Shown here in pieces: positions 4,792-27,750 of a stretch of 33,924 bases of DNA. The position numbers and the translations under genes were made by a program. Each line of letters starts with the position of its first letter. The first letter of the stretch is position 1. Origin of the DNA: a virus; IMG/VR virus record IMGVR_UViG_3300044695_001244, positions 1 to 33,924 of that record, one strand, 5' to 3'. The notes under the pieces are model-generated. The model was given only the letters and a program-made list of their open reading frames with translations, was not told where the DNA came from and did no database searches.

Positions 4792-6021
4792 TCATTTTTT
4801 ATTAAAAATATATTCATTTGCAGGATTTATTTCGGAATTATCCACTAAAAGTTCAATTATTTTCGGATTTACTAACTCTGGATGCACCCACCAATCTTCA
4901 AAAGCAGATTTTTTATCAACTGAAATATTAGAAACTACTAATTTATATCCCATCATTTCTAAATATTTTCTACTTTTATCCCTATATGTTTTATCATCAC
5001 TATACCAATCATGCTCATAAGTTATTACAGCAAATCTATATTTGTCAAATGGAATAGATAAAAGTGCTTCAAATGTATTCTTTGCCGGCTCACAATCTAA
5101 TTGCAGATAATCTAAATCAGTTCCCCAATTTTTATTATCTAATATCTCTAAATAATTTGCTTTGGTTGCATCTCTTTGTATACATTGATTTTTTCTTTTA
5201 CCATTAAACCATGTAACCATTGTAGGATTGATTTCTAACGATATACCTTTCCAATTAAACTTATCCTCTAATAAAAAAGTATTGGAATGCTCAAATGGTT
5301 GATACGAACCTATCTCTAAATACTTACCTTCTTTCTTGCCATCCAATGCCATTAAGACAAACATATCTTGAAATGCCTGTGAGTGATTATGTTCTATCAT
5401 CTCAATACCATTAAACTCATATCGTATCTTATCACCTTTCTTATAGTATGTAGGTTTTGCCCAATTATCTGTTCCCCAAATAAGTTTAATATTATTTTTA
5501 ACTGATACTTTGTATTCATCACTTAATTCATAATTCTCATATAAGTCCAAAAGCAAATCAATACTCTCTTTTGTTCTACCCATCCACCAACTAACTACAC
5601 TTTTTTCAAACAAAAATCCTATTTTACCTGGATATTCTACACTCTGCAACTCATCAACATCAAAATTGACCATAAAAAGTCCAATTTCAGCAGTTGAATA
5701 ACTTTCTTGCCACTCTTTATTCCTTTCATATAACCTACTTAATAAGAAATATGCTTCTGGTTTCATTGGCAATACTGATATAGCATGTTGATACATACCC
5801 TTTGCATAAAATGTTCTATTACCTTGCTTTTCAAAACACAATCCACACTTTAATAAACTTTCGTAAATCAATAAATCGTTCTTTGATACTTCGGTTAATC
5901 TTAAATAAAAAGACATTGCCGCAGCATATTGTTCGTTATCGTAATACCAATTAGCTAAATGAAATGCTGCTAAGTCGTTGTATGGTGATTGTATAAAACT
6001 ATTTAATTCCTTCATAAACAA
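4792..6021 (-). CDS. TPR-repeat protein with C-terminal FkbM-type methyltransferase domain
   Basis: The protein has 409 residues, or 407 if the second ATG at 6015 is used. Residues 1-180 are helical with TPR-like repeats (AAFHLANWYYDNEQYAAAMSFY, EAYFLLSRLYERNKEWQESY). Residues 210-390 resemble the FkbM SAM-dependent methyltransferase family: QAFQDMFVL, then the SAM-binding YLEIGSYQP, then SLEINP and the DYLQLDCE segment. FkbM enzymes O-methylate sugars or polyketides. The gene overlaps the GH130-like gene by 23 bases, so the two are probably co-translated as a glycan-modifying pair. The target could be host surface sugar or virion glycan. Such auxiliary genes are rare in so small a phage. Confidence 0.75.
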   Translation of the reverse strand: MFMKELNSFIQSPYNDLAAFHLANWYYDNEQYAAAMSFYLRLTEVSKNDLLIYESLLKCGLCFEKQGNRTFYAKGMYQHAISVLPMKPEAYFLLSRLYERNKEWQESYSTAEIGLFMVNFDVDELQSVEYPGKIGFLFEKSVVSWWMGRTKESIDLLLDLYENYELSDEYKVSVKNNIKLIWGTDNWAKPTYYKKGDKIRYEFNGIEMIEHNHSQAFQDMFVLMALDGKKEGKYLEIGSYQPFEHSNTFLLEDKFNWKGISLEINPTMVTWFNGKRKNQCIQRDATKANYLEILDNKNWGTDLDYLQLDCEPAKNTFEALLSIPFDKYRFAVITYEHDWYSDDKTYRDKSRKYLEMMGYKLVVSNISVDKKSAFEDWWVHPELVNPKIIELLVDNSEINPANEYIFNKK

Positions 6022-7947: not shown

Positions 7948-9636
7948 CTATTTAATTTTTTGGTCTAATTCTTTAATTGCTTCAACTAATAATCCTATCA
8001 TTTTAGAATAATCCAAAGCTAGATATCCATCTTCTCTTTGTTTAACAACTTCGGGTAATACTTCTAACACTTCTTGTGCAATTAAACCTGTTGTTGGTAA
8101 AGATTGTGTTACCACATCTGTATTAGTTTCATTCCAATCCCATTTAACACCATTAAGTTTCTTAACTTTTTCTAATGCATCTAATATAGAATGAATATTA
8201 TCTTTTTGTCTTTTATCAGAAGTAAAGAATGCAGTTATGTTTCCAGTTGCAGTTATTGCTCCGGTTACTGCTAATGTGCTACCATCAAAAGTTAAATTAG
8301 CTTCACCATTTATTGTATTAGCATCTACGGAAGTAATTACTCTATTATTGCCAGAGTTTGTGTATGAGGTTATTCCTGCACTTGCTCCGGTTGTTCCTTG
8401 TGCACCTGTTGCACCTTGTGTTCCGGTTCCAGTTGCACCCTGTGCGCCGGTTGCTCCTTGTGTTCCCGTTCCCGTAGAACCCTGTGCACCTGTTGCACCT
8501 TGTGTTCCTGTTCCCGTTGTTCCTTGTGCTCCCGTTGCTCCTTGCGTTCCAGTTCCAGTTATACCTTGAATACCTTGCGAGCCATTGGTTCCTGAAATAC
8601 CCTGAATACCCTGCGAACCATTTGTGCCACTTATACCTTGTATTCCCTGACTGCCATTTGTGCCACTAATTCCCTGAATACCTTGACTACCATTAGTTCC
8701 GCTTATACCTTGAATACCTTGTGACCCGTTGGTTCCAGATATACCTTGTATACCTTGACTTCCGTTTGTGCCACTTATACCTTGAATACCTTGCGAACCA
8801 TTAGTTCCTGCGGTTCCTTGAATACCTTGTGGGCCAGTTCCGCCAGTTATACCTTGAATACCTTGTGCTCCATTGCTACCTGCGATACCTTGTATTCCTT
8901 GACTACCATTTGTTCCGGCAGTTCCCTGTGCTCCATCGGCTCCCTGTGCACCTGTATCACCCGTTGTTCCTTGTGTGCCGGTTGCTCCTTGCGTTCCAGT
9001 TCCTGTTATACCTTGTATACCTTGACTACCATTAGCACCTTGTGCGCCGGTTGCACCTTGTGTTCCGGTTCCAGTTGTTCCCTGCACACCTTGCGTTCCT
9101 TGCGTTCCTTGTGTTCCTTGTGGGCCAGCTGGTGCAGATGCTATAATGAAAAGCATTTGGTGATTGTTAGGAAAAGTATATGTAGAAGTAATTAGAGTAA
9201 CTCCATAAGTCCAATATGTTGTATTATCAGTTTTAGAAGTAATTTGCCACGTTTGGTAATTTGATTGTGATGATTGGTCTTGCAATACAATTGTAGTTCC
9301 AACCAAAATATTTGATAAGAATACATCTATGTTATTGCTATTTTGGTCAGTATCACTTACACTTATTGATGTTGCTGATGCCTGTGTTGCGTTATTCCAA
9401 ATGATATGTCCTGATAACGGGTCACCACTTGTTATAGTATCTTTTGCTTGGTAGTTAAAGAATGTATTTGTTTCACCTGCTGTTCCTTGCACACCTTGTA
9501 TACCTTGAACACCTTGTGCTCCACTACTACCCGTTGTAGGTAATTGAACTCCGTTTATACTTAGCGACCCGGTAATATCTACACTACCGCTGAATTGCTG
9601 AGAGCCTGTTATTGATGCATTTAATATTAAACTCAT
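7948..9636 (-). CDS. Collagen-like tail fibre with C-terminal Peptidase_S74 intramolecular chaperone
   Basis: This is a 562-residue fibre protein. Residues 1-45 are a beta module (ITGSQQFSGSVDITGSLSINGVQ) and residues 75-165 a globular beta domain. Residues about 168-410 are collagen-like Gly-X-Y triplets rich in Gln and Thr, including seven tandem 12-residue units. The last 90 residues are an S74 (endosialidase-type) chaperone: SDKRQKDNI carries Ser473 and Lys478, the Ser+5 Lys spacing of the autocleavage dyad, followed by GLIAQEVLEVLPEVV and LLVEAIKELDQKI. The chaperone should trimerise the fibre and then cut itself off just before Ser473. The fibre probably binds the host surface. It shares architecture with the 1505-aa fibre directly upstream. 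Confidence 0.88.
   Translation of the reverse strand: MSLILNASITGSQQFSGSVDITGSLSINGVQLPTTGSSGAQGVQGIQGVQGTAGETNTFFNYQAKDTITSGDPLSGHIIWNNATQASATSISVSDTDQNSNNIDVFLSNILVGTTIVLQDQSSQSNYQTWQITSKTDNTTYWTYGVTLITSTYTFPNNHQMLFIIASAPAGPQGTQGTQGTQGVQGTTGTGTQGATGAQGANGSQGIQGITGTGTQGATGTQGTTGDTGAQGADGAQGTAGTNGSQGIQGIAGSNGAQGIQGITGGTGPQGIQGTAGTNGSQGIQGISGTNGSQGIQGISGTNGSQGIQGISGTNGSQGIQGISGTNGSQGIQGISGTNGSQGIQGISGTNGSQGIQGITGTGTQGATGAQGTTGTGTQGATGAQGSTGTGTQGATGAQGATGTGTQGATGAQGTTGASAGITSYTNSGNNRVITSVDANTINGEANLTFDGSTLAVTGAITATGNITAFFTSDKRQKDNIHSILDALEKVKKLNGVKWDWNETNTDVVTQSLPTTGLIAQEVLEVLPEVVKQREDGYLALDYSKMIGLLVEAIKELDQKIK
8557..8808 (-). repeat. Seven tandem 12-residue collagen units (36-bp period) with scrambled codons
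   Basis: Seven consecutive units encode GTNGSQGIQGI(S/T) with identical amino acids in the first eleven positions. The DNA differs from unit to unit, almost entirely at synonymous positions: Ser is AGT, TCA or TCG-like, and Gly uses several codons. This is coding repeat within the S74 fibre, not a CRISPR array or minisatellite. Confidence 0.85.
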
Positions 9637-9643
9637 ATATTTT

Positions 9644-12600
9644 TTATGTTAATCTTATCATTACGAAATTACCGTTTCTATATAATCCACCCAATGGCAC
9701 TCCACCTGCTGCTGCTGCCGTATCATCTGCGAAGTTTAGAGATGAACTCACACTTGCTAATGTTGTAAACGAACTTACTAATAAACTACCTGTCATTTCA
9801 GTATTACCTATTACCTGTAATTCAATTGCTGCTGATGAACTTAATATCAAACTACCAGTCATTGTAGTGCTACCCGATACATTCAAACTACCCTCAAAGT
9901 ATGAGTTAGACCCACTATCAATTAAGAAGCCTGTCTTTCTATTTGATGCTGAGGTTCCCGTTCCAACAAAGAATATATTTTCAGCGGTTTGGTTTCTTAT
10001 ACCATCGTCAGCATTAAATCTACCAAAGTATCCACCACCACTTGCAGTAATAGCATTATTGTTTGACCCAGTTAGTATTAAGCTTTGTCCCCCGATTAGA
10101 TTACTACGGAAATCAACATACATGCCTCTACCCTCTACATTTGTAAAAAAGGTATTTAATGACCCAAATACTCCGTTTCCTAGCATTGTTGCCCCTGTAC
10201 CAGTTCCACCATAACTTCCAGATACGGTATAAGTATTAGTTGCACCTTGTACCTGATTATTATTAAATGTTAAACTACCTGACCCAAACGACCCACTATA
10301 CATACGATTTGTGACAGATATTGCAGCCGGTGATATATTATTTTGAGCAGAGATTGCTGATGCACTTGCTATTAAGGATAATGCACCATAGTTACCAGTT
10401 ATATTTGCAGTGGTTCTATGTAAACCCAATCCTGCTGCCCCTACATTATTATAACTTATTGAAGACTGCAAAAAGTTATTTGATGCATTTACTGCAACAG
10501 AGGACGAATGATTGGTTATAATTAAACTACCACCACCATTGATTATATTACCTGAATAAGTTGGATTTATATTACCAGGTTGATTACGATTTGTAGTTAT
10601 AGTTATACTTCCCTGATTATTATTATTGGATAAACTTATAGTATGACTACCACTAAAACCACCTGTTATTTCATTGAACGATGCAGATGCTGCATTGATT
10701 GTAATGCTACCATTATTTATATTATTTTGTAAAGTAAGTGACCCGGTAAATGCCATGGCATTTATTGTATTTGTGCTTGTTCCACCAAATATATTATTGG
10801 AATAAGTATGTGTTCCACCATTTACTGCTTGGTTAATATTTAAGACAGAGGTTCCGTTGAATATATTATTATTCATCGTAGGTGTTGTTCCACTTACACT
10901 TACTGCAGATGCAGTTATTTGTGAATTGACACCATTACTATTATTTAAGTAAAGGTTATTAGCGCCTCCGATATATCTTGTGTATCCAGTTGTTGGTGTA
11001 GAGGGGTTTGTGAATATATTTCCACTACCTGATATAATTGTTGTCCCGGTATTGTTATTTGCTTTGAATATAAAGTTAGCAAGTGTAGTATTGTTTGAGC
11101 TAGATAAATGTAATACCGATGCAGTTGAATTGGTAAAACTATTATTACTTAATATCAAACTACCAGAATGAGCTAATAATTTTATTGCTCCTGTTGCTAC
11201 TCCATTTCCACTACTATTTACCGGGCCTATTGCAACTCCACTATCTGCTCCTAATTCAATATCGCGACTGTTTACTACAACTCTAATACTTCCGCTACCA
11301 CCACTAGCACCATTATTGCCAATATTTAATTGACCATATGCTGTTAAATTGCTTGTCAAAGTTCCTTGCAAAAGTATATTGCTTTGGCCACCACTAGACG
11401 AGCTTATATACAAATTATTATTTCCTGAGAATGAAATAGTTTGGTCGCCTCTAAATGTATTGCTACCTGTTATTGCAAAACCTTGTAACTTAAATGTAGT
11501 TGCATCTCCTTTTGTGAATGTAATATCGTTTGATGCGAAAGATGCAGTCACTAATAAACTACCTGTGTCCGTGCTTCCACCTCCACTACCAGTTATAGTT
11601 GTAAATGTTAATACACCACTTCCGTTTGTAGTAATTACTTGACCATTAGTTCCGTCTGTGCCTGGATATGTTAATCCTTGTATAGTTGTCTGGCTACCTG
11701 ATATTGTAATACCTCCACCATAACCTGATAGGTCAATTTGTCCGTTAGTCTTTACTTGTATTCTACCTCTACTAGTTGCAGGATTAGATTGGTCTGCTAA
11801 AGCATCTAAATCAATTTTTGCATTTTGACCACCATATCTTGTTGCCAATGCAAAAGACCCCGATAATCCACCTACTAATTGTAAACCTTGATTATCTGGG
11901 TTACTATCACTATATGTTTGAATATATGGCCCATTTTGCCCAAAGAATATTTGTCCCGAACCTGTTGCACTATTAGGTGAAGTGAATTGTAAATAACTAT
12001 TAGCGGAGCTTGAAATGGTTAATTTTCCATTTACAATTTGGTCTCCGTTAAATGTATTGCTACCTGTTGTTGCGAAACTACCTGTATTAATAGCTACATT
12101 ACCAAAAGTAAGTGTTCCGCTACCATTTGTTATTAAAGCCTGGCCGTTTGTTCCATCAGTAGTAGGATATGTTAAACCTTGCATTTGTAAAGTGGAGCCT
12201 GTTATTTGAATACCTTGTCCTGCCTCAAATGAAATACCACCACTAACACTTGAAAATCTTATACTATTTGCACCGGTACCAGTAGTCGTTTGAAATGTCA
12301 TAGTAGCACTATTGCCACTATTATTTCTAAATTGCATTACTCTACTACCCGTTCCGTATAAGAAAAAGTCTAATCCTCTTGACTTTGGATTATCAGTATC
12401 ACCTGTAAATTGGAAATTATCATCCTCATTACCATTCAACCACATCTCATTTGGAAATTGTAATCTAGGGCCACCTGGACCTGTTAATTTTAGACCTGAA
12501 CCTCCTGTTAATTCTATACCATAGCCAAATCCACCACTACCAGAAATAGTAATAGCAGGACTTGCAGCTGTTATAAATGATTGTTGTCCTGTAAATGTAT

Positions 12601-14161
12601 TGCTGCCTGTTGTTGCGAAACTACCTGTGTCAATACTTCCACCACCACTACCAGTCGCTACTGTTAAATTAAATGTTGTCGCATCTCCCTTTGTAAAAGT
12701 TAAAACATTACCTGCAACACTACCGGTCACTAACAAACTACCAGTATTAGTAGAACCACCACCACCAAATGAGGATGTTGGAACTGTTGTAGATATTCCA
12801 CTAGCATTACCTACCCATGCGTATCCTTGTTGTAATGATGCAGTTAATGTAGATTGAATATTAACATTACCTGAAACAATTAAGTTTCTAAAAAACTCAA
12901 ATGGTGATGCGGAACCTGTGCTTACTGCAAAAATATTTTCAGATAAGTCACTATTTCTAAAAGTAATTCCTTTCCTAAAAAATCCATTGTCTAATAAAAA
13001 GTTATCAGTTCCAATCGCGTCGAATGATATTCCACTACCAACACCACTTGGGTTTGTTGCAGCTAATTGTATATATGTGTAAGGGCTTCCTGATATATTT
13101 TTACCATTGATATATCCATTAACTGTCAATGCTTCGGCCGGTAAAGCTGGATTTCCGTTAATAGTTTGATTGCCGTTGAATGTATTGCTACCTGTTGTTG
13201 CAAACCCTTGCAAATTAAATGTAGATGCATCTCCTTTTGTAAATGTAATATTGTTAGATGCAAAAGATGCAGTGACTAATAAACTACCTGAACTTATACC
13301 TGCTCCTTCTGTTCCTTGCACACCTTGTATACCTTGCACACCCTGTGTTCCAGTTCCAATTATACCCTGAATACCTTGTGCTCCGGTAAATCCTTGTATA
13401 CCTTGCGTTCCCTGTGTTGAATTATCTGCTCCTTGAATACCTTGTAAACCTTGTAGACCCTGAATACCCTGAATACCTTGTGCACCATCGCTACCACTAA
13501 TACCATTCGTTCCTTGTATACCCTGCAAGCCTTGGATACCTTGTGTTCCTTGTGCTCCATCACTGCCAGTTATACCATTAGTTCCTTGAATACCTTGCAA
13601 ACCTTGCAGACCTTGTAAACCTTGCAGACCTTGTAGGCCTTGCAAACCTTGAATACCCTGTGTTCCTTGCGTTGAGTTATCAGCACCTTGTATACCTTGC
13701 AATCCTTGTAAACCTTGCAGACCTTGTAGGCCTTGTAGGCCTTGCAAACCTTGTATACCCTGTGCACCATCACTACCAGTAAGTCCGTTTGTTCCTTGGA
13801 TACCTTGCAGACCTTGTAAACCTTGTATGCCAGTTATACCTTGCGTGCCTTGTGTTCCCTGTAAACCCTGTAATCCTTGTATACCTTGTGCACCTTGTAA
13901 AGATATTGATGAAGTTGCTACTGCTTGGTTATATCCATTAGCATCACCTAACCAAATATATCCTTGTGGTAATTGTGCAGTTAAACTTCCTGATATAATT
14001 TGATTACCTACGAATGTATTGCTACCCGATAATAATGCACTACTGCTTATCCAATTGCTATTCAAATCTCTAACTGCTGACGCAGAAATACCACCATTGA
14101 CATTAGTAAAATAAGTTGCTGCTGATGCTGATGTAAGTTCTTGTTGATTATATATTGCCAT
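9644..14161 (-). CDS. Giant collagen-like tail fibre / tail appendage protein (1505 aa)
   Basis: At 1505 residues this is the largest gene. Residues 1-90 form an attachment module ([20 protein letters not shown]). Residues about 90-290 are Gly-X-Y collagen repeats, mostly GLQ and GIQ triplets, with short breaks such as GADNSTQG. The rest is a series of beta-repeat modules that reuse the phrases [21 protein letters not shown] and [11 protein letters not shown], then Asn/Ser-rich beta-helix-like sequence. The C-terminus ([29 protein letters not shown]) is a tail I recognise from environmental phage fibres. It sits eight bases upstream of the S74 fibre and could form the shaft to which that fibre or tip is added. 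No enzymatic motif is visible. Confidence 0.85.
13300..13900 (-). repeat. Collagen-like Gly-X-Y repeat region of the giant fibre
   Basis: About 200 codons of Gly-X-Gln triplets form long GLQ and GIQ runs. Synonymous codons are mixed along the array: Leu as TTG, CTG and CTA-like codons, and Gly as GGT, GGC, GGA and GGG. Near-identical blocks of about 100 bp recur around the GADNSTQG breaks (13410-13440 and 13670-13690). Boundaries are approximate. Confidence 0.75.
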
Positions 14162-14455: not shown

Positions 14456-14767
14456 TTATCCCATTCTTTTTAATGCTTCTTTATGTAAAACTTCTTGCAA
14501 CCATTGTTTATCAGCTTTATATGCTAACAACATTAAACATTTCTCTAACGGCTCTCCGATAACTCCATCAATCTCTTTAATGTTTCCGTTGGCAAGTTCA
14601 GCGATTGTTGCATATGCTCTCCACTTTTTACTAAAACGGATTTGATGTTGGCCGGTATCTCCGTGGTCTGCGTCAAAGATTTCAGGGTATCTTTCAGTAA
14701 GTCCATTGACAAATTTACAAAAAAAAACAGAGCACCGAAGTGTATATCCATTGTTTGCTTTAACCAC
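14456..14767 (-). CDS. -1 frame partner of the chaperone-like gene, probably expressed as a frameshift fusion
   Basis: This 103-codon frame overlaps the end of the 225-aa gene by 223 bases in the -1 frame. Its first 16 codons, including the ATG at 14767, are probably not used. From the T9 slip site at 14719-14727 onward it encodes CKFVNGLTERYPEIF and then FSKKWRAYATIAELANGNIKEIDGVI, a sequence with convincing protein character that resembles a domain I recall from Bacteroidota phages (KKWGWYxxIYxLAxGD). A -1 slip would join the first 168 residues of the upstream frame to its last 87 residues, giving about 255 residues. Independent initiation at 14767 is the alternative. Confidence 0.65.
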   Translation of the reverse strand: MVKANNGYTLRCSVFFCKFVNGLTERYPEIFDADHGDTGQHQIRFSKKWRAYATIAELANGNIKEIDGVIGEPLEKCLMLLAYKADKQWLQEVLHKEALKRMG

Positions 14768-15222
14768 ATCTCTTCATCTATTTTACCCTGATAACTTTCT
14801 ATCTCATACATATCACCTATCTTCTTTATTACAGGTCTATATAAGATACTCATTACCTTTGCCCAATTCTTATCAATCGTTACTGCATCGTATTGTGTGA
14901 TATCTGCATAAGCACCATAAGTGATATTAGATAAGTTAGGTTCAAATCCATATTCAACACCATCAATAAAAATAAATCTTTGTAATTCCAATTCTTCTGG
15001 CTTACTGAAATTTAATAACTCATTACGAAGTGCATTATAACTTTCCGTTCCTAATCCTTTTAGATATTCAGGCGATAGATTACATAAGTGGTGAAGGAGT
15101 AAAGCAGTTTGTGCTTCCTCATTATCTTTGTAATTATCCATATCGGCATGTAGAGCTAAATACTTTTTAAGTGTTACATCATTCCATCCATTAGGAACTT
15201 CAATTATCATTTTCTTTTTCAT
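14545..15222 (-). CDS. Tail-assembly-chaperone-like protein, zero-frame product (225 aa)
   Basis: This 225-residue protein opens MKKKMIIEVPNGWNDVTLKKYLAL. It has the phrases YGFEPNLSNITYGAYADI, AKVMSILYRPVI and DIHFGALFFFVNLSMDLL, a pattern I recall from a conserved Bacteroidota phage family that sits near structural genes. Frame use and the slippery T9 inside the FFF codons suggest a G / G-T type tail assembly chaperone pair, in which a minority of ribosomes shift to the -1 frame. Its stop codon lies 174 bases after the slip site. Its ATG overlaps the previous gene's stop as TAATG. Most such chaperone genes precede the tape measure, but this one lies after the terminase genes. Confidence 0.7.
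   Translation of the reverse strand: MKKKMIIEVPNGWNDVTLKKYLALHADMDNYKDNEEAQTALLLHHLCNLSPEYLKGLGTESYNALRNELLNFSKPEELELQRFIFIDGVEYGFEPNLSNITYGAYADITQYDAVTIDKNWAKVMSILYRPVIKKIGDMYEIESYQGKIDEEMWLKQTMDIHFGALFFFVNLSMDLLKDTLKSLTQTTEIPANIKSVLVKSGEHMQQSLNLPTETLKRLMELSESR
14719..14727 (-). promoter_or_regulatory. Candidate programmed -1 frameshift site (T9)
   Basis: Minus strand reads CTG TTT TTT TTT GTA in the zero frame. It contains the heptamer T TTT TTT in the correct X XXY YYZ phase. A -1 slip makes the next codon TGT at 14719-14717 and enters an 87-codon open frame ending at 14456. Confidence 0.65.
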
Positions 15223-15759: not shown

Positions 15760-16932
15760 CTATCTTATTGAAATATCGTATTGTCCTGCTCTTATCTTTT
15801 TAGCGTTTAACCTTTCCATTACCACATAACGAATAGCATCTATACTATGGTTACTATAATCAACAGGTATGTTTTCAAAGTTACCATTCTTATCTACCAT
15901 CCACACATACTCACCAAACTCTTTGATTGTATTTATACTACGCTTGGTTACATGCAATCTATACTGCTGCATTAAATCTATTCCTAATCTCACACTATCC
16001 TTTCCTTTTTTAACAGGCTTAATATTAAAACCACTTCTGTATATCTCTTCTATTAATCTCGGTTCTGCACTATCACCCCATATTTCATTCCTACCTATAT
16101 CCAATCTTTTTAATTCAGCTATAATGTCCGATGTAACCATTCCTTTTTTATACAGCAACTCATCGATATATAAATCTCTGTCTAACTTTGCTACACAAAC
16201 TAATGTTGAAGGGTCTACACTAAATCCATAATCCATACCAAACGCAACGAACTCTGCTTCATCGGGTATCGCATCTACAATGTTAATAGAGAATATCGTT
16301 CCTACATTATTGCCTGGCAAACCTAATCCATAAATCTTATAGTATTCAGGGTTAATGAATTGCAATCTCTCAATCTCTTCAATTAACTGCTTCTCTAAAA
16401 ACGGATTATCTTTGTAGGTTGATATAAATAAATCTGCTTCAGGGTGTGTATGTATCTCTGTGAATATATAATTTGTAGTTCCGAATGAGGGGTTATATGC
16501 TATAATACTTTTTTTGCGTGTTCTTATAAATAACTGAAACCAATCCTCTCTACTTAATTCATTGGCCTCATCCACAAAAAGATAATCTCTTGCACTACCT
16601 TTTCTTTTTTCTGAACTATCAATTGACATAAACTCTACTATACTGCCATTATCAAATGTATAGATGTGTTCAGTTGCAGACCAGTTATCATCACTCCATA
16701 TATCTAATCCTTTAAGTATACCAACCCAATCTCTCATAATACTAACACGCATAGACGGAAACGACTTACGCACAATACTGAATACCATATTAGGTTCAGT
16801 CAATGCTTTAACTAATATCCATTGGAGTGCTGAGTAACTTTTAGAACTTCTTGTGCCACCTTGCAGTATACAAATCCTTTTGCTTCCCTCTATATCCCTA
16901 TATGTCTTTGATGTGTTGATGTTCAGTTCCAT
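15760..16932 (-). CDS. terL: Terminase large subunit
   Basis: This 390-residue packaging motor shows the ATPase Walker A-like GGTRSSKS at residues 25-32, a hydrophobic Walker B with DEA (YLFVDEANEL) near residue 122, and the nuclease-domain acidic motifs GMDYGFSVDPSTLV near residue 230, IWGDSAEPRLIEEI and SIDAIRYVV towards the C-terminus. It translocates DNA into the prohead through the portal and cuts concatemers. The length is normal for the shorter Terminase_3/6 families. The gene overlaps the small-subunit candidate by 35 bases, and its start at 16932 is the first Met before the ATPase domain. Confidence 0.92.
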   Translation of the reverse strand: MELNINTSKTYRDIEGSKRICILQGGTRSSKSYSALQWILVKALTEPNMVFSIVRKSFPSMRVSIMRDWVGILKGLDIWSDDNWSATEHIYTFDNGSIVEFMSIDSSEKRKGSARDYLFVDEANELSREDWFQLFIRTRKKSIIAYNPSFGTTNYIFTEIHTHPEADLFISTYKDNPFLEKQLIEEIERLQFINPEYYKIYGLGLPGNNVGTIFSINIVDAIPDEAEFVAFGMDYGFSVDPSTLVCVAKLDRDLYIDELLYKKGMVTSDIIAELKRLDIGRNEIWGDSAEPRLIEEIYRSGFNIKPVKKGKDSVRLGIDLMQQYRLHVTKRSINTIKEFGEYVWMVDKNGNFENIPVDYSNHSIDAIRYVVMERLNAKKIRAGQYDISIR

Positions 16933-17269: not shown

Positions 17270-18328
17270 TTACCAAAACTTTCTTTTATCCGCTTCATAC
17301 TCTATTCTTTGTTTTGCAATTTCATAATACTCTTTCTCTCTTTCTATTCCAACAAACCACATACCTTCTTGCATTGCTGCTTTGCCTGTGCTACCACTAC
17401 CCATAAACGGGTCTAATACTATACCATCTTTCGGTGTCACTAAACGAATTAAGTATTTCATTAAGTCAGTTGGTTTAACTGTTGGGTGATTATTCTTTCT
17501 TTTGAATACTTGGTTATCAGTTATAGGGTTATCACAACTACATATTGTTTCAGGACTACCAATAAACTTTTTACCACAACTTGCACATCTTGCATTGAAA
17601 TCTCTTGCTCCACCTTTTGTTGTCCTCAATGCTTTTGCATCAGTTTCTATTCCACTATCTCTATCCTTTGCATTTGCTTTAGGACAATAAAAATATTTTC
17701 TCCATTCTTCATTATCACTATCATCCATTATTACATTTGCTGGCCATCTACCTCCTTCATGTGGCTCTGCTACAACATATTCTTTTCCTTTTGCACTTTC
17801 ACCATCTTCATATGAATTAAATGTATCGTGATATGCATTGTATCTTCTTATGTCCATTTTATCACCATCTTGCATTTGTATTCTTGTCCCATCTATATTC
17901 AATCCACCTACTCCATATTCTTTATGATTATCATTACAACTACCCTTAAAAGGTTTTCTTGCCATTACTATTGGTTCATGTGCTGGCTTTAATGCAGTTC
18001 CCCAACCTTCTCCTAATTGATGTGATTTAGGAAAGCCACTACCATATATCCACATAATCTGGTCTCTAATGTCAAACCCTGCATCTTCAATCCTTACTGC
18101 CATTCTATGATATGTTCTACTACCTGCGAATGCTAATAAGTGTCCGCCTGGTTTTAATACTCTTAAACACTCTTGCCATATTTCTACACTTGGCACATCA
18201 TAGTCCCACTTCTTTCCCATAAAGGATAAACCATATGGAGGGTCCGTGACTATACTGTCTATACTATTGTTGTCTAATTCTTTGAGTTTGTCTATGCAAT
18301 CTCCATTTAATAATCTTAATTCTTTCAT
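17270..18328 (-). CDS. DNA adenine/cytosine-N4 methyltransferase, beta-type order, with zinc-ribbon insert
   Basis: This 352-residue DNA methyltransferase has the catalytic motif DPPY (VTDPPYGLSFMGKKWDY) near residue 30, a GGHLLAFAGSRTYHRM segment, and SAM-binding motif I DPFMGSGSTGKAAMQ near residue 310. Motif IV before motif I is the beta-class order. Between them lies a 150-residue region with a C-x2-C ... C-x-C pair (CASCGKKFIGSPETICSCD), probably a zinc-stabilised insert. The N6-adenine or N4-cytosine target cannot be read by eye. It lies 8 bases after the second methyltransferase. The likely role is protection of phage DNA from host restriction, since no restriction endonuclease is present. 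Confidence 0.88.
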   Translation of the reverse strand: MKELRLLNGDCIDKLKELDNNSIDSIVTDPPYGLSFMGKKWDYDVPSVEIWQECLRVLKPGGHLLAFAGSRTYHRMAVRIEDAGFDIRDQIMWIYGSGFPKSHQLGEGWGTALKPAHEPIVMARKPFKGSCNDNHKEYGVGGLNIDGTRIQMQDGDKMDIRRYNAYHDTFNSYEDGESAKGKEYVVAEPHEGGRWPANVIMDDSDNEEWRKYFYCPKANAKDRDSGIETDAKALRTTKGGARDFNARCASCGKKFIGSPETICSCDNPITDNQVFKRKNNHPTVKPTDLMKYLIRLVTPKDGIVLDPFMGSGSTGKAAMQEGMWFVGIEREKEYYEIAKQRIEYEADKRKFW

Positions 18329-18335
18329 AACTTGT

Positions 18336-19247
18336 TTATATAAAAAATTGATTTAACTTTTGAGTTTGTTGTGGAATATCTACACTACAATAATCTGGCA
18401 CCTCATACTCACCTGGCTTTCTAAACACTAAAATATATTCATGTATCTTTGAGGTAAACCTTTTACAATTCACTTTATAGATTTGTAGTGCAGCAAACGG
18501 AGATATGTTTTCCATAATGATTGTATCCCAATGTTTCATTCCGTTATTCTTAAATTGATTGATTAAATCTCCGTGAAAGTTTCTTAACTCACCATCTCTT
18601 CTAAAATCTGCTACTACAAATACTGCGAATGCACCTGGCTTTAATACTCTACCTACATTCTTTACACATTCATTCATACTCTCCATAAAGTTATCATATC
18701 CCTTTACATCACTCAATTGTCCATCACAACTCTCATACTTCTCTATATCATAATAAGGTGGACATGTCATAACTAAATCTGCAAAGTTATCTTCTGTATA
18801 TTCTAATTTACAACCATCTCCTTTATACAATGTAGGACTGATATTATGTTTGTCAAAATGTGCTAAGTTTCTTTTATATGTGTTAGGTGTAATCTCATAC
18901 CCATAATAATCTCTATCTAATAAAGTAGTGACAGTTGCTCTTGTTGCTCTACCTGCAAATGGGTCAACTACTCTTGCACCTTTTAACGACCAATATCTAA
19001 CTATTGTTTCACATACGCCAGCATGAAACTCCGACAATGTAGCTACACCATCTTTGTTTTTAATTCCTCTATCTGTTCTTACTGCTAATTCACCATCGTC
19101 AAAGTATGCAACATCTTTCCATTTTTGTTTACTTTCCGTTGTAGGTTTGGTTACACTAAACGGTTTCCAACCAAACTGGTCTATACTTTTTAATTCTTCG
19201 TCAAAGGGTAAAACCTTTGCGTAATCGTGTTCTCTTGTAACTGCCAT
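18336..19247 (-). CDS. Second DNA methyltransferase (motif I VDPFAGRATRATV, motif IV CPPYYD)
   Basis: This 303-residue protein has SAM-binding VVDPFAGRATRATV near residue 100, the catalytic-type TCPPYYDIEKYESCDGQ near residue 165, and RVLKPGAFAVFVVADFRRDG near residue 205, all typical of amino-methyltransferases. Motif I precedes motif IV, so its class differs from the neighbouring enzyme, and the CPPY variant suggests a different base target. The two genes form a pair in the early/middle block. Together they could modify phage DNA at two sites as an anti-restriction measure. Confidence 0.85.
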   Translation of the reverse strand: MAVTREHDYAKVLPFDEELKSIDQFGWKPFSVTKPTTESKQKWKDVAYFDDGELAVRTDRGIKNKDGVATLSEFHAGVCETIVRYWSLKGARVVDPFAGRATRATVTTLLDRDYYGYEITPNTYKRNLAHFDKHNISPTLYKGDGCKLEYTEDNFADLVMTCPPYYDIEKYESCDGQLSDVKGYDNFMESMNECVKNVGRVLKPGAFAVFVVADFRRDGELRNFHGDLINQFKNNGMKHWDTIIMENISPFAALQIYKVNCKRFTSKIHEYILVFRKPGEYEVPDYCSVDIPQQTQKLNQFFI

Positions 19248-19429: not shown

Positions 19430-19994
19430 TAAATGGATTATCTAATATCTCTTTCATATGTGTGCGTATCTTTCTTATTGCAAGGAATGTAGTTGATTTA
19501 CTTATTCCGATTGCATCTGCTACCTCATTGAGATTTTTATCACTATACCAATACAATTCATAGAGTTTGGCAGAAGGCCATAACTTTGTTCCTTTTAATC
19601 TATTAAGTTCTTCTTTAACCTTATCATATGTTTCCATTATATCATTATCCTTCTGTATATCATATTCTTCAAAAGTGGTTTCTTCATCACAAATTACTTC
19701 ACCAATATATTTTACCCTATTCTTTTTCTTCGTTTGATTTAACCACCTATGTCGTAAAAACTTCATGCAATAGATTAAGTTGTAACTATCCTCTTTCCAA
19801 AATAGTTTAGTATTTTTTTTTACATGCAAATATTCATAAAGCATACTTACAAGTTCTTCACTATCGGTATAACTCTTACAAATGTTATATGATACTTGCA
19901 ATAACCATGTATGAGATTGGAGATAGAGATTAGTTAACCTTCTCTCACATTCCATCTCAATACTACCGGTTATTTCGTTAAGCATTCTCAACAT
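19422..19994 (-). CDS. Sigma-factor-like / HTH transcription protein, 190 aa
   Basis: The protein shows a sigma-70-like plan in miniature. A helical region around residues 25-60 (LLQVSYNICKSYTDSEELVSMLYEYL) resembles sigma region 2. A linker follows, and then a region-4-like helix-turn-helix near residues 140-185 (LYELYWYSDKNLNEVADAIGISKSTTFLAIRKIRTHM). The length is close to T4 gp55 (185 aa), the late sigma factor that recognises a single -10 element, though I see no direct identity. It sits in the early/middle block. It could redirect host RNA polymerase to the conserved late motif, an inference that needs testing. A plain regulator is the alternative. Confidence 0.6.
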   Translation of the reverse strand: MLRMLNEITGSIEMECERRLTNLYLQSHTWLLQVSYNICKSYTDSEELVSMLYEYLHVKKNTKLFWKEDSYNLIYCMKFLRHRWLNQTKKKNRVKYIGEVICDEETTFEEYDIQKDNDIMETYDKVKEELNRLKGTKLWPSAKLYELYWYSDKNLNEVADAIGISKSTTFLAIRKIRTHMKEILDNPFND

Positions 19995-20217: not shown

Positions 20218-20485
20218 TTACTTTGTTCAATTTTGGTAACTTAATATCCGGTGCCGTTGATTGTTGACCTGGTAAGATTGGGTTCTCTAAATTAACAAAT
20301 TGTTGTAAGATTTCCCAATGCGGATGCGATGGACTGAAACTGAAACCAATTGATGCGAGGATAAGAATTAAATCTTCCATTCTATTCATCTTACTGAAAT
20401 CGATGAAGTATAATGCATCTTTGTTGATTTTTGGATTTGAACCATCTAGTGTTGCTTTGATTGGTTCTCTGAATTGTGTGCTCAT
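20201..20485 (-). CDS. Unknown small protein, 94 aa
   Basis: The sequence is MSTQFREPIKATLDGSNPK... with a helical core (MNRMEDLILILASIGFSF) and a Pro-rich tail. I cannot place it in a family. The gene lies in an overlapping early cluster between the 70-aa and 79-aa genes. It has an A-rich leader (AAAAACAAAAAAAA) before the ATG, as is usual in Bacteroidota. Confidence 0.6.
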   Translation of the reverse strand: MSTQFREPIKATLDGSNPKINKDALYFIDFSKMNRMEDLILILASIGFSFSPSHPHWEILQQFVNLENPILPGQQSTAPDIKLPKLNKVNGTSK

Positions 20486-20502
20486 TTTTTTTTTGTTTTT
20501 GA

Positions 20503-20745: not shown

Positions 20746-20777
20746 TTAAGATACGAAATATTTTTTAATTTACCAAA
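20746..20777 (-). promoter_or_regulatory. Host-type (Bacteroidota) promoter, second early promoter
   Basis: Minus strand has TTTGGTA at -33 (20771-20777) and TATCTTAA at -7 (20746-20753), with a 20-base spacer ending ATTTCG. It aligns base for base in its conserved parts with the promoter at 22471-22502. The expected start is about 25 bases upstream of the ATG at 20715. The -33 element lies in the end of the GIY-YIG gene. Confidence 0.65.
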
Positions 20778-21214
20778 GCTTTGAACTGATATTTTCTATC
20801 CACTACTTTACTTCTACCTTTTATGTTTGCCGAAATTGAACGGAAACCTACATTAAGTTTTCTACTTGCTTCCATAATAGAACGATAGATACCTAATTCT
20901 TTTCCTGTGTTTGCACATAATACTTTAACTGATACCTTATCCATATTGGTTGCACTTTCTTCGGTTAATTCAAAACCATGTTGTAGTTTTAATTCAGCTT
21001 CATAATCCCAACCTTCTCTACGATTATCAAACTCTTTAACTACTTCCATTCTAACATCAGTTCTTCCGTAGAACTTACCTACGCCTGAACCCTGATACCA
21101 ATAGGTGTGGTTATACCATCTTCTTTTAGGATTGCTAGTGCAACCTATATACTCAATTTCATTTTGTGTATTTACTATGGTATACACAGACCATTTGCTT
21201 TTTAACTTTGCCAT
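20765..21214 (-). CDS. GIY-YIG homing endonuclease with C-terminal NUMOD1-like domain
   Basis: This 149-residue protein has a GIY-YIG nuclease core at residues 9-85: VYTIVN... and YIGCTSNPKRRWYNH hold the two signature tyrosine/glycine elements and Arg, and a Glu near residue 74 (YEAELKLQ) follows. Residues 105-149 contain an IENR/NUMOD1-like DNA-binding element (LGIYRSIMEASRKLNVGFRSI). It stands alone between phage genes, so it is probably a free-standing mobile endonuclease that cuts sites lacking it. It hosts part of the downstream early promoter in its end. With the HNH gene nearby, two mobile endonucleases flank the replication-like gene. Confidence 0.8.
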   Translation of the reverse strand: MAKLKSKWSVYTIVNTQNEIEYIGCTSNPKRRWYNHTYWYQGSGVGKFYGRTDVRMEVVKEFDNRREGWDYEAELKLQHGFELTEESATNMDKVSVKVLCANTGKELGIYRSIMEASRKLNVGFRSISANIKGRSKVVDRKYQFKALVN

Positions 21215-22502: not shown

Positions 22503-22574
22503 ACAATTTACATATTTAGTGTATATTAATAAGTATTGAAATATTTTATTTTCATACCACTTTTTAATAATAAT

Positions 22575-22597
22575 TTTTTTTTGATGTGTTAAAGAAT
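22575..22597 (+). promoter_or_regulatory. Late promoter motif copy on the plus strand
   Basis: Plus strand reads TTTTTTT-TGAT-GTGTTAAAGAAT, with the same 4-base spacer as the minus-strand copies and the core GTGTTAAAGA intact. It is the only plus-oriented copy I found. It points into the structured segment 22586-22755. Confidence 0.5.
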
Positions 22598-25710: not shown

Positions 25711-27750
25711 TTATCCTCCACTAAAAGTTGCTGCTCTATTTGTTCTCCTATCCAATGCCTGTTGGCTAGAAATTTCAGTTGATACAACATATGCTTGAAT
25801 TGGTTTTTTAGTTGTTTGTGATAGAGTTTGTGCAATTTGTGATGTAGGATTTGCACCTGCTCCTGTATTAATTTGTGGTGTTGCAGTAGCCGTTGGTGCA
25901 CCTCCATATACTGGTGGTGGTGCCTGTGCTGCTGCCGGTGAACCTCCACCACCTTGCACACCTGCTGAACCTGCTGCTTGATTTATTTGTGAAATTGATT
26001 TAGCTGCTGCTGCGACTGTTGATGCAATACTTAATCCCGCCGATATAGTATTAATCGTAACCCAAGGTTGTCCAAAACCTAATGGATTTGCTGCTAATGC
26101 TTTTGCATTTGCTAAACCTGTGTTTGCAATAATTTGTCCGATTGCTGCTGCCTGTGATATAACGATACCTGCAATTGCTAGAGTTTTATTCTTTCCTGCT
26201 AATTGAGTTAATGTGTTACCGAATTGTGCAAACAAATCTAAATACGCCATATTGATTGCGTGTTTAGCTTCCATTGCTGCTTTTTCAGTTGCAACCTCTT
26301 TATTAGTTACATTCATTCTAGCATCTGCATATTTCTTTCTGATTTCAGTTCTTTGAAATTCAGTAAGTTCAGTATTTTCTAATTCCTTAGCTTCTTGTTC
26401 AGCAAGTAATGCTTTCATTGTAGCTAATCTCTCTAAATCTTGTTTGAAATCTCCTTCTACTAATTGGTTTTGTCTATCTAACTCCTCAATCTTACCTTGC
26501 AATTCTAATAAAGCAATACCTCTCTGTTCCTCTAATCCTTTCTTTCTTTGTTCTTTTTTATAGTTTTCAAAATCTAATTCAGCTTGAGCTAATTCTTTTG
26601 CATCAGCTGCAAACTTAACTCTTAAATCATAAAGTTGTTGTTGGTATGCACCTTCTTCCATACCTTGTGCCTTCTTTATATCCAATGCGTTTTTTTCTGC
26701 ATCAAAGATATCCTTATTTGCTTTGGCTGTTAACTCTTTTTGCTTATCCTTAAATCCTGATAATTGAGTTGTATAATCACTATCTAATTTTATTAATTCA
26801 GCTTGAATACCTTTATACTCAACACTATCTTTTTTATATAATGCTTGCTTATCCTGTAAATCTTTTAATCTTTGATTGTAAGATTTTTCAGCAAATGCTT
26901 TTTCAATATCCAACTTTTGTTGTTCAGTTGTAGCAAGTGCTAGAGTTTCAGCTTTCATTTTCTCTAAACGAGCTTCATCAATCTTATCCTCAGCTTCCAT
27001 TCTCTTCAACTTCTCTTGCAAAGCTTTATCACTATCATCCTTTTGTTCTTTGAGATTGGCTTTTTGAGTTTTAGTCATTTTAGCTGCACCCTTATCAAAT
27101 CTTTCAGTTGCTGCTTCGTAGTTATCACTAAATGATGTTACTGATGATTTAGCATCTTCCCATGCTCCTGCAAAATCTCCTTTGAATAATTTTACAACTG
27201 CCGAACCTAACTTACCTAATGATTGGAATACTGCCGTTACTGCCGAATAAACTACTTTGAATGCTTTTGTTACATACGGCATTACCTGTATTGCTAATTC
27301 AACAAATCCATCAATCAAAGGTTGTATTGCTTCTAATATACCTCCGAATATTTGTTCCATTGCAATCAACAAAGGTTCTAGCTTTTTCATCGAACCTTCG
27401 GTTTGAGTAAATGCTGCAACTAATCCACCAACCAAAGATACTATTAAACCAATACCTGTTGCTTTAAGTGCTGCTCCCCAACTCTTTGTTGCTAATTCAA
27501 CTTTCTTTAATCCTTGAAATAATTGACCTACGGGACCAGGTGCAGCTTCTAATGCTCCTGCAAAATCATCTGCTCCTAATTTAGCACCTGCAATTGCATC
27601 CTCCATATCTCTAATTTCAGAAGATAATCTTTTGAAATCAGCAGAACCTGCAGCTGCACTTTTCAATTGCTTCTTTAATTCTTTCAAATTAGCAATTGAA
27701 GCATCTAAATTGGATTGAACATCAATCTCTACTTCAACTTTCTTTGCCAT
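25711..27750 (-). CDS. Tape measure protein
   Basis: A 679-residue protein with the features of phage tape measures: an N-terminal helical part, hydrophobic transmembrane-like segments (GIGLIVSLVGGLVAAFTQ near 100 and a second near residues 525-600 such as AIAGIVISQAAAIGQIIA), a long charged coiled coil (residues about 230-500, full of KEEL/KALLAEQEAKEL), and a Gly/Ala/Pro-rich tail. At the usual 0.15 nm per residue it would set a tail of about 100 nm, consistent with a siphovirus. It lies among tail genes, after the 51-aa gene that overlaps its start by 22 bases. No peptidase or lysozyme domain is seen in it. Confidence 0.85.
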   Translation of the reverse strand: MAKKVEVEIDVQSNLDASIANLKELKKQLKSAAAGSADFKRLSSEIRDMEDAIAGAKLGADDFAGALEAAPGPVGQLFQGLKKVELATKSWGAALKATGIGLIVSLVGGLVAAFTQTEGSMKKLEPLLIAMEQIFGGILEAIQPLIDGFVELAIQVMPYVTKAFKVVYSAVTAVFQSLGKLGSAVVKLFKGDFAGAWEDAKSSVTSFSDNYEAATERFDKGAAKMTKTQKANLKEQKDDSDKALQEKLKRMEAEDKIDEARLEKMKAETLALATTEQQKLDIEKAFAEKSYNQRLKDLQDKQALYKKDSVEYKGIQAELIKLDSDYTTQLSGFKDKQKELTAKANKDIFDAEKNALDIKKAQGMEEGAYQQQLYDLRVKFAADAKELAQAELDFENYKKEQRKKGLEEQRGIALLELQGKIEELDRQNQLVEGDFKQDLERLATMKALLAEQEAKELENTELTEFQRTEIRKKYADARMNVTNKEVATEKAAMEAKHAINMAYLDLFAQFGNTLTQLAGKNKTLAIAGIVISQAAAIGQIIANTGLANAKALAANPLGFGQPWVTINTISAGLSIASTVAAAAKSISQINQAAGSAGVQGGGGSPAAAQAPPPVYGGAPTATATPQINTGAGANPTSQIAQTLSQTTKKPIQAYVVSTEISSQQALDRRTNRAATFSGG

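Follow-up and report, generated by a model that had tools for sequence, protein, structure and literature searches.

Within the window, that is, the whole 33,924-nucleotide stretch of viral DNA analysed here (IMG/VR record IMGVR_UViG_3300044695_001244), a minus-strand open reading frame (ORF; 15222-14545) encodes a protein of 225 aa and contains the in-frame codons CTG TTT TTT TTT GTA at 14730-14716. Beyond the nine T's (T9) the zero frame continues for 57 codons to a stop at 14545, and the -1 frame is open for 87 codons to a stop at 14456. A -1 shift at T9 would thus give a fusion of 255 aa (168 + 87 aa), as computed from the sequence. The slip site was proposed in an earlier reading of this DNA (the original prediction), and its coordinates and lengths hold, with T TTT TTT in phase at 14725-14719. 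The features considered are listed in Table 1.

Table 1 Features of the recoded gene and of the genes to which its position is compared
Feature	Position	Strand	Evidence
Zero-frame ORF, 225 aa, standard product (N domain and zero-frame tail)	14545..15222	-	ORF translation
N domain, 168 aa, common to both products	14719..15222	-	PHROG_32199; weak PHROG_166 (tail protein) and PF10109 Phage_TAC_7 matches
T9 run (U9 in mRNA), recoding site	14719..14727	-	9 or 10 T's in each of 214 distinct relatives
In-phase slippery heptamer T TTT TTT inside T9	14719..14725	-	Sequence
-1 frame segment, 87 codons and stop, C domain of the fusion	14456..14719	-	PHROG_38404 match in relatives
Two-frame region, 57 zero-frame codons and stop over the -1 segment	14545..14718	-	Selection in both frames
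Large terminase subunit, conserved upstream neighbour	15760..16932	-	Best matches are Bacteroides phage terminases
Probable tape measure protein, about 10 kb off	25711..27750	-	Weak PHROG_3336 and PHROG_1538 matches

Four runs of at least nine A or T residues are present in the window, with 3.4 expected under a first-order Markov model. Since such runs are common here, a T9 in one genome alone is weak evidence of recoding. The other runs of nine or ten bases are A9 at 19813-19821, A10 at 20485-20494 and A9 at 22574-22582 (in the sense of minus-strand genes); the first lies inside a 190-aa ORF (19994-19422), and slippage would be possible there too. Just upstream of the recoded gene, two ORFs in different frames (15757-15359 and 15455-15222) share about 97 nt.

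The best matches of the terminase are those of Bacteroides phages, and the nearest isolate, Nonlabens phage P12024S, infects Persicivirga, a host of the Flavobacteriia; a Bacteroidota host is therefore likely, and the assignment to a Bacteroidota-type phage made in the original prediction is borne out. Other genes of the window include two large genes for collagen-like fibres of 1505 and 562 aa with long repeats of the G-x-Q type (9644-14161 and 7948-9636), two adjoining DNA methylase genes of the N6_N4_Mtase family (17270-19247) and a GIY-YIG endonuclease (20765-21214) whose weak NUMOD1 match hints at a homing endonuclease. An XkdF-like serine protease (PF14550; 24585-25679) lies beside the tape measure candidate, far from the portal and the putative capsid gene, and a gene located among the structural genes (4792-6021) encodes a protein of 409 aa whose N-terminal part has weak TPR matches.

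Conservation of the junction and selection on both frames

Relatives of the recoded gene were gathered by protein-guided searches in which the T run was not a criterion, and the isolate P12024S was added. The resulting sample comprises 214 distinct complete junctions; three loci (L193, L348 and L361) were left out because their sequence stops at or shortly past the junction with the C part beyond its end, although L193 does carry a T10. In all 214 junctions, the C part lies in the -1 frame and a T run is located at the junction, and in none are the N and C parts fused in frame. Among the relatives with this arrangement, protein identity is as low as 22% and GC content as high as 55%; the arrangement is kept across 13 lineages with less than 50% identity and nine lineages with less than 40% identity, and T9 is retained in genomes of 47-55% GC. 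The +1 frame is shut within 15 codons in every relative. The searches found no relatives of the recoded gene in bacterial genomes. Two phages considered as relatives were rejected: Bacteroides phage BC669P2, which is close by its terminase, has neither a homologue of either half nor the T run, and in Flavobacterium phage 6H, to which a weak structural match had pointed, no sequence homologue is convincing.

In P12024S the site reads CTT TTT TTT TAT and the -1 frame runs on into the C domain. Its gp38 and gp39 (JQ823122.1 23136-23830; L106:14001-14695) together represent both frames of the recoded gene, and the record lists them as separate hypothetical proteins. PHROGs likewise splits the halves into PHROG_32199 and PHROG_38404, both without assigned function; these entries belong to the same family, and the recoding is marked neither in the record nor in PHROGs. 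On this comparative evidence, the locus is a deeply conserved and overlooked -1 recoding gene. The view that the shift is real and selected and leads into a genuine C-terminal domain thus stands, as all 214 junctions keep the -1 arrangement together with a run of 9 or 10 T's.

Two ways of doing without recoding have to be weighed against these data. According to the first, the -1 ORF would be a plain overlapping gene that starts at a codon of its own and is translated by coupling; in its favour, the -1 frame of the window has a GTG 48 nt before the slip, and the P12024S record annotates the 3' part separately. This reading is very improbable: 61 of 141 representatives lack any ATG, GTG or TTG in the -1 ORF as far as 30 nt beyond the slip, start positions vary among the others (ATG in only 34/141), the ATG annotated for gp39 falls inside the conserved C domain, and the conserved T run would be left unexplained. 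Because no start codon is conserved across the 141 representatives, an independent start of the C part was rejected. Relatives in which the T run is missing and the -1 domain is read from its own start, named in the original prediction as the counter-case, were sought in the family and none was found. According to the second, the run would be a contingency tract undergoing phase variation, or its length an error of assembly, with the two parts fused in frame in some genomes. A homopolymer of 9-10 bases is indeed a typical tract for DNA polymerase slippage, but not one of the 214 distinct junctions is in frame, the isolate P12024S has the same arrangement and the zero-frame tail is longer than expected (see below). 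Phase variation was rejected on the comparative evidence, there being no in-frame variant, and is scarcely credible, even less so than a separate start.

The codons around the slip site differ strongly in their freedom to vary. The Phe codons of the heptamer are TTT in 138/138 cases, compared to 72.5% TTT elsewhere in the gene. Within the class of relatives whose run is in phase 0, the three Phe codons have a synonymous codon identity of 1.00 and the six codons before them (-1 to -6) one of 0.37-0.50; farther upstream, single codons reach 0.92. Downstream, zero-frame Asn, Ser and Asp codons show values of 0.97-1.00, which is the expected pattern because the -1 frame is also read there. Upstream of the slip, relatives differ most often at position 3 of the zero frame; over the first 45 nt read in both frames, the maximum moves to zero-frame position 2, the third position of the -1 frame. 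The zero-frame tail has a mean length of 48.6 codons versus 15.6 codons expected under the -1 constraint alone, the expectation being obtained by synonymous resampling of the -1 codons. Taken together, the substitution pattern and the long zero-frame tail suggest that both products, and hence both frames of the overlap, are under selection. The proposal that about 170 bases are read in two frames is supported by the -1 third-position peak and by the excess length of the zero-frame tail.

Ribosome or RNA polymerase as the slipping machine

The original prediction had called the event a programmed -1 ribosomal frameshift. Its core, a conserved -1 recoding, is retained, and its ribosomal nature is in doubt, since runs of 9-10 T's occur in all codon phases and no stimulator was detected. 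The mark expected of each machine is present at the junction: an A/T homopolymer of about the length of the RNA:DNA hybrid, as for transcriptional slippage, is present as T9 or T10 in 214/214 junctions, and an in-phase X XXY YYZ heptamer, as for -1 ribosomal frameshifting, is present as T TTT TTT in 214/214. The latter count follows from the former, because any run of at least nine T's includes an in-phase T TTT TTT.

The length of the run is 9 or 10 in every junction and never 7, 8 or 11 and more, and among the 214 junctions the run occurs in all three codon phases. The numbers of T's beyond the heptamer on its 5' and 3' side are (2,0) in 121 junctions, (1,2) in 72, (1,1) in 11, (0,2) in eight and (0,3) in two, so that their sum is always 2 or 3. 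Among 123 representatives placed on a tree, the run changed its layout at least 11 times and kept its length. Slippage is efficient at nine A/T residues, and the RNA:DNA hybrid alternates between 9 and 10 bp (PMC5009743); in A/T runs one-nucleotide insertions predominate and rise exponentially with length (PMC5574713), and slippage of the Escherichia coli polymerase is increased on poly(T) (PMC6260861). The simple argument that 9-10 T's alone prove slippage is nevertheless weakened, because an aligned FF(F/L) peptide together with the in-phase heptamer already forces about eight T's; the run length is therefore supportive and not decisive.

A further constraint concerns the base before the run. 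It is G or C in 121/121 phase-0 members, and in the phase-0 representatives with a codon choice at this place G or C was found in 71/71, with 10.9 expected. The Leu codon at 14728-14730, directly 5' of T9, and its counterparts in phase-0 relatives are TTG, CTG or CTC and never TTA or CTA; elsewhere TTA and CTA make up 78% of the Leu codons. In one study, with a G or C before a T5 run, insertion slippage was unchanged or slightly higher, and with CC before it deletion slippage was threefold lower (PMC6260861). The G/C base before T9 fits a constraint at the level of nucleic acid, which is not to be taken as proof of one.

For a ribosomal shift, the tRNA-Phe in the P and A sites would move back by one base on T TTT TTT and pair anew, in the manner of P2 E/E+E', to give the 255-aa fusion. 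The heptamer in phase in 214/214 junctions and its invariable TTT Phe codons agree with this mechanism. P2-type phages use the same design at T TTT TTG, the P2 record annotating a -1 translational frameshift, and the FF(F/L) peptide could explain much of the extra T. Yet six or seven T's suffice for a ribosomal shift, and none of the 214 junctions has fewer than nine: in a control with P2-type gpE, 18 of 20 distinct sequences have T6, one has T7 and one has GGGAAAG. Moreover, neither T TTT TTA/C/G alone nor a heptamer other than T was ever found as a replacement (0/214), and the strictly conserved G/C base 5' of the run in phase 0 lies outside the P- and A-site codons. Stimulators were likewise not evident: RNA structure free of pseudoknots gave no signal in minimum free energy (MFE) before or after the run in 95 representatives (mean z about 0, and -0.06 for the 0-70 nt after the run), and Shine-Dalgarno (SD)-like 4-mers showed no enrichment near the site. 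Bacteroidia ribosomes are described as failing to recognise SD sequences (PMC9976891), and Flavobacterium johnsoniae was reported as a poor frameshifter at prfB (PMC12421855). We regard programmed -1 ribosomal frameshifting as a serious but less probable explanation.

The fixed length of 9-10 T's, their occurrence in all phases, the lack of a stimulator signal and the SD-blind hosts are fitted by transcriptional slippage at least as well as by a ribosomal shift, and slippage with insertion of one U is, from the sequence comparison, our first choice by a modest preference. Most transcripts would then be read in frame to yield the 225-aa protein. At 9-10 T's, the whole RNA:DNA hybrid of 9-10 bp would consist of rU:dA pairs, the RNA could slip back by one base and the polymerase would add one extra U, whereupon ordinary translation of the U10 message would lead to the fusion. 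In this minority of cases, the -1 frame change at T9 would give the 255-aa protein, which ends in a predicted helical domain of 87 residues instead of the last 57 residues of the 225-aa protein, and the length of the run would fix the ratio between the two.

Likeness to phage tail assembly chaperones

The arrangement of a short product and a -1 fusion sharing one N-terminus is found, at the level of sequence, in all 214 junctions, and by analogy the gene is likely to work like the tail assembly chaperones G/GT of lambda or E/E+E' of P2. With lambda gpG/gpGT it shares the two-product -1 design; the frameshift of G/GT is ribosomal, its rate giving a ratio of about 30:1 (PMC5009743), and no relation in sequence or fold to the recoded gene is evident here. 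P2 gpE/gpE+E' has in common with it the single start, the short product with its -1 fusion, the T-rich slip site in the late part of the zero frame and a weak, sub-threshold match of about 40 residues to Phage_TAC_7 (PF10109) in 13/33 relatives. The P2-type site is T6 (18/20) and here T9-T10, the P2 gene lies directly before the tape measure gene and the recoded gene after the terminase gene, and here the N part (168 aa) and the C part (87 aa) are longer and the dual-coded region is long.

Profile and fold comparisons gave the following picture. PHROG_166 (tail protein) matches the N part weakly in 12/33 relatives (best 7e-5). PF10109 gave E=0.012, which is below the cut-off, and matched 13/33 relatives with an E of 0.1 or lower, the best value being 9e-4; in searches of the whole record, each of the two profiles matched only the recoded gene. 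PHROG_3140 (tail assembly chaperone) weakly matches one relative, and the C domain is matched by PHROG_38404 in 21/32 relatives at E up to 0.1. Profile-profile comparison by hhalign with P2 gpE, using either one sequence or six, gave no match (probability 0.6% with the gpE alignment). AlphaFold2 models were moderate, with a mean pLDDT of 77 for the N product and 85 for the C part. Foldseek and VIA-align searches against the PDB returned generic helical matches only and no solved structure, and a profile search of PDB sequences no credible relative. Matches in the BFVD were mostly to uncharacterised phage proteins; a named tail assembly chaperone was matched with E=4.6e-3 and low TM-scores of 0.35/0.40.

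The gene does not occupy the place between the major tail protein and the tape measure: the terminase gene adjoins it, directly upstream in 126 of the 128 relatives with room, and the tape measure candidate is about 10 kb away, in accordance with the unusual position pointed out originally. Because of the weak profile and fold matches and this location after the terminase, we compare the gene in its manner of working to a G/GT chaperone and stop short of placing it in that family; of the earlier statement that it mirrors the G/GT design, the two-product -1 arrangement is upheld and the chaperone role is a likely analogy.

Its constant place after the terminase gene suggests that the two proteins of the recoded gene might serve another step, e.g. 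terminase- or head-related assembly. The lack of a confident profile or fold match to tail chaperones would agree with such a role, which we consider rather unlikely, given that the tail protein profile and PF10109 each match nothing else in the genome, that a tail assembly chaperone is the namesake of both the weak PHROG_3140 match and the low-scoring BFVD match, and that no other chaperone candidate is seen beside the tape measure. We infer that both proteins are made, that the polymerase rather than the ribosome slips and that the role is in tail assembly.

Precedents for slippage are known from cellular genes: Thermus thermophilus dnaX and Shigella mxiE and spa have an A/T homopolymer in the coding sequence (nine residues in dnaX), at which extra bases are inserted into the mRNA (PMC5009743). 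The recoded gene, which is a phage gene, would share this property only if the slippage reading is right. A phage tail chaperone using transcriptional slippage was not found in the literature searched. The two-product design as such is known already, and the large environmental family with a fixed T9-T10 run is a new variation on it.

Phage tail chaperones count among the classic examples of ribosomal frameshifting. The present family keeps the chaperone design but fixes a T run of the length of the polymerase hybrid, suggesting that the same control of the ratio can be exerted by a different machine. In our view there is an even chance that, in a whole family of tail assembly chaperones of phages, the proportion of short to long product is adjusted through slippage of RNA polymerase at a T9-T10 run of controlled length, and not through ribosomal frameshifting; the non-use of SD sequences by Bacteroidota ribosomes is perhaps the reason for a polymerase-based control. 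The isolate P12024S makes the question of the slipping machine directly testable. For Bacteroidota-type phages, the analysis brings together a gene pair now listed as two proteins of unassigned function and displaying a long region selected in two frames, and the signature of 9-10 T's could be used to find tail chaperone candidates in them.
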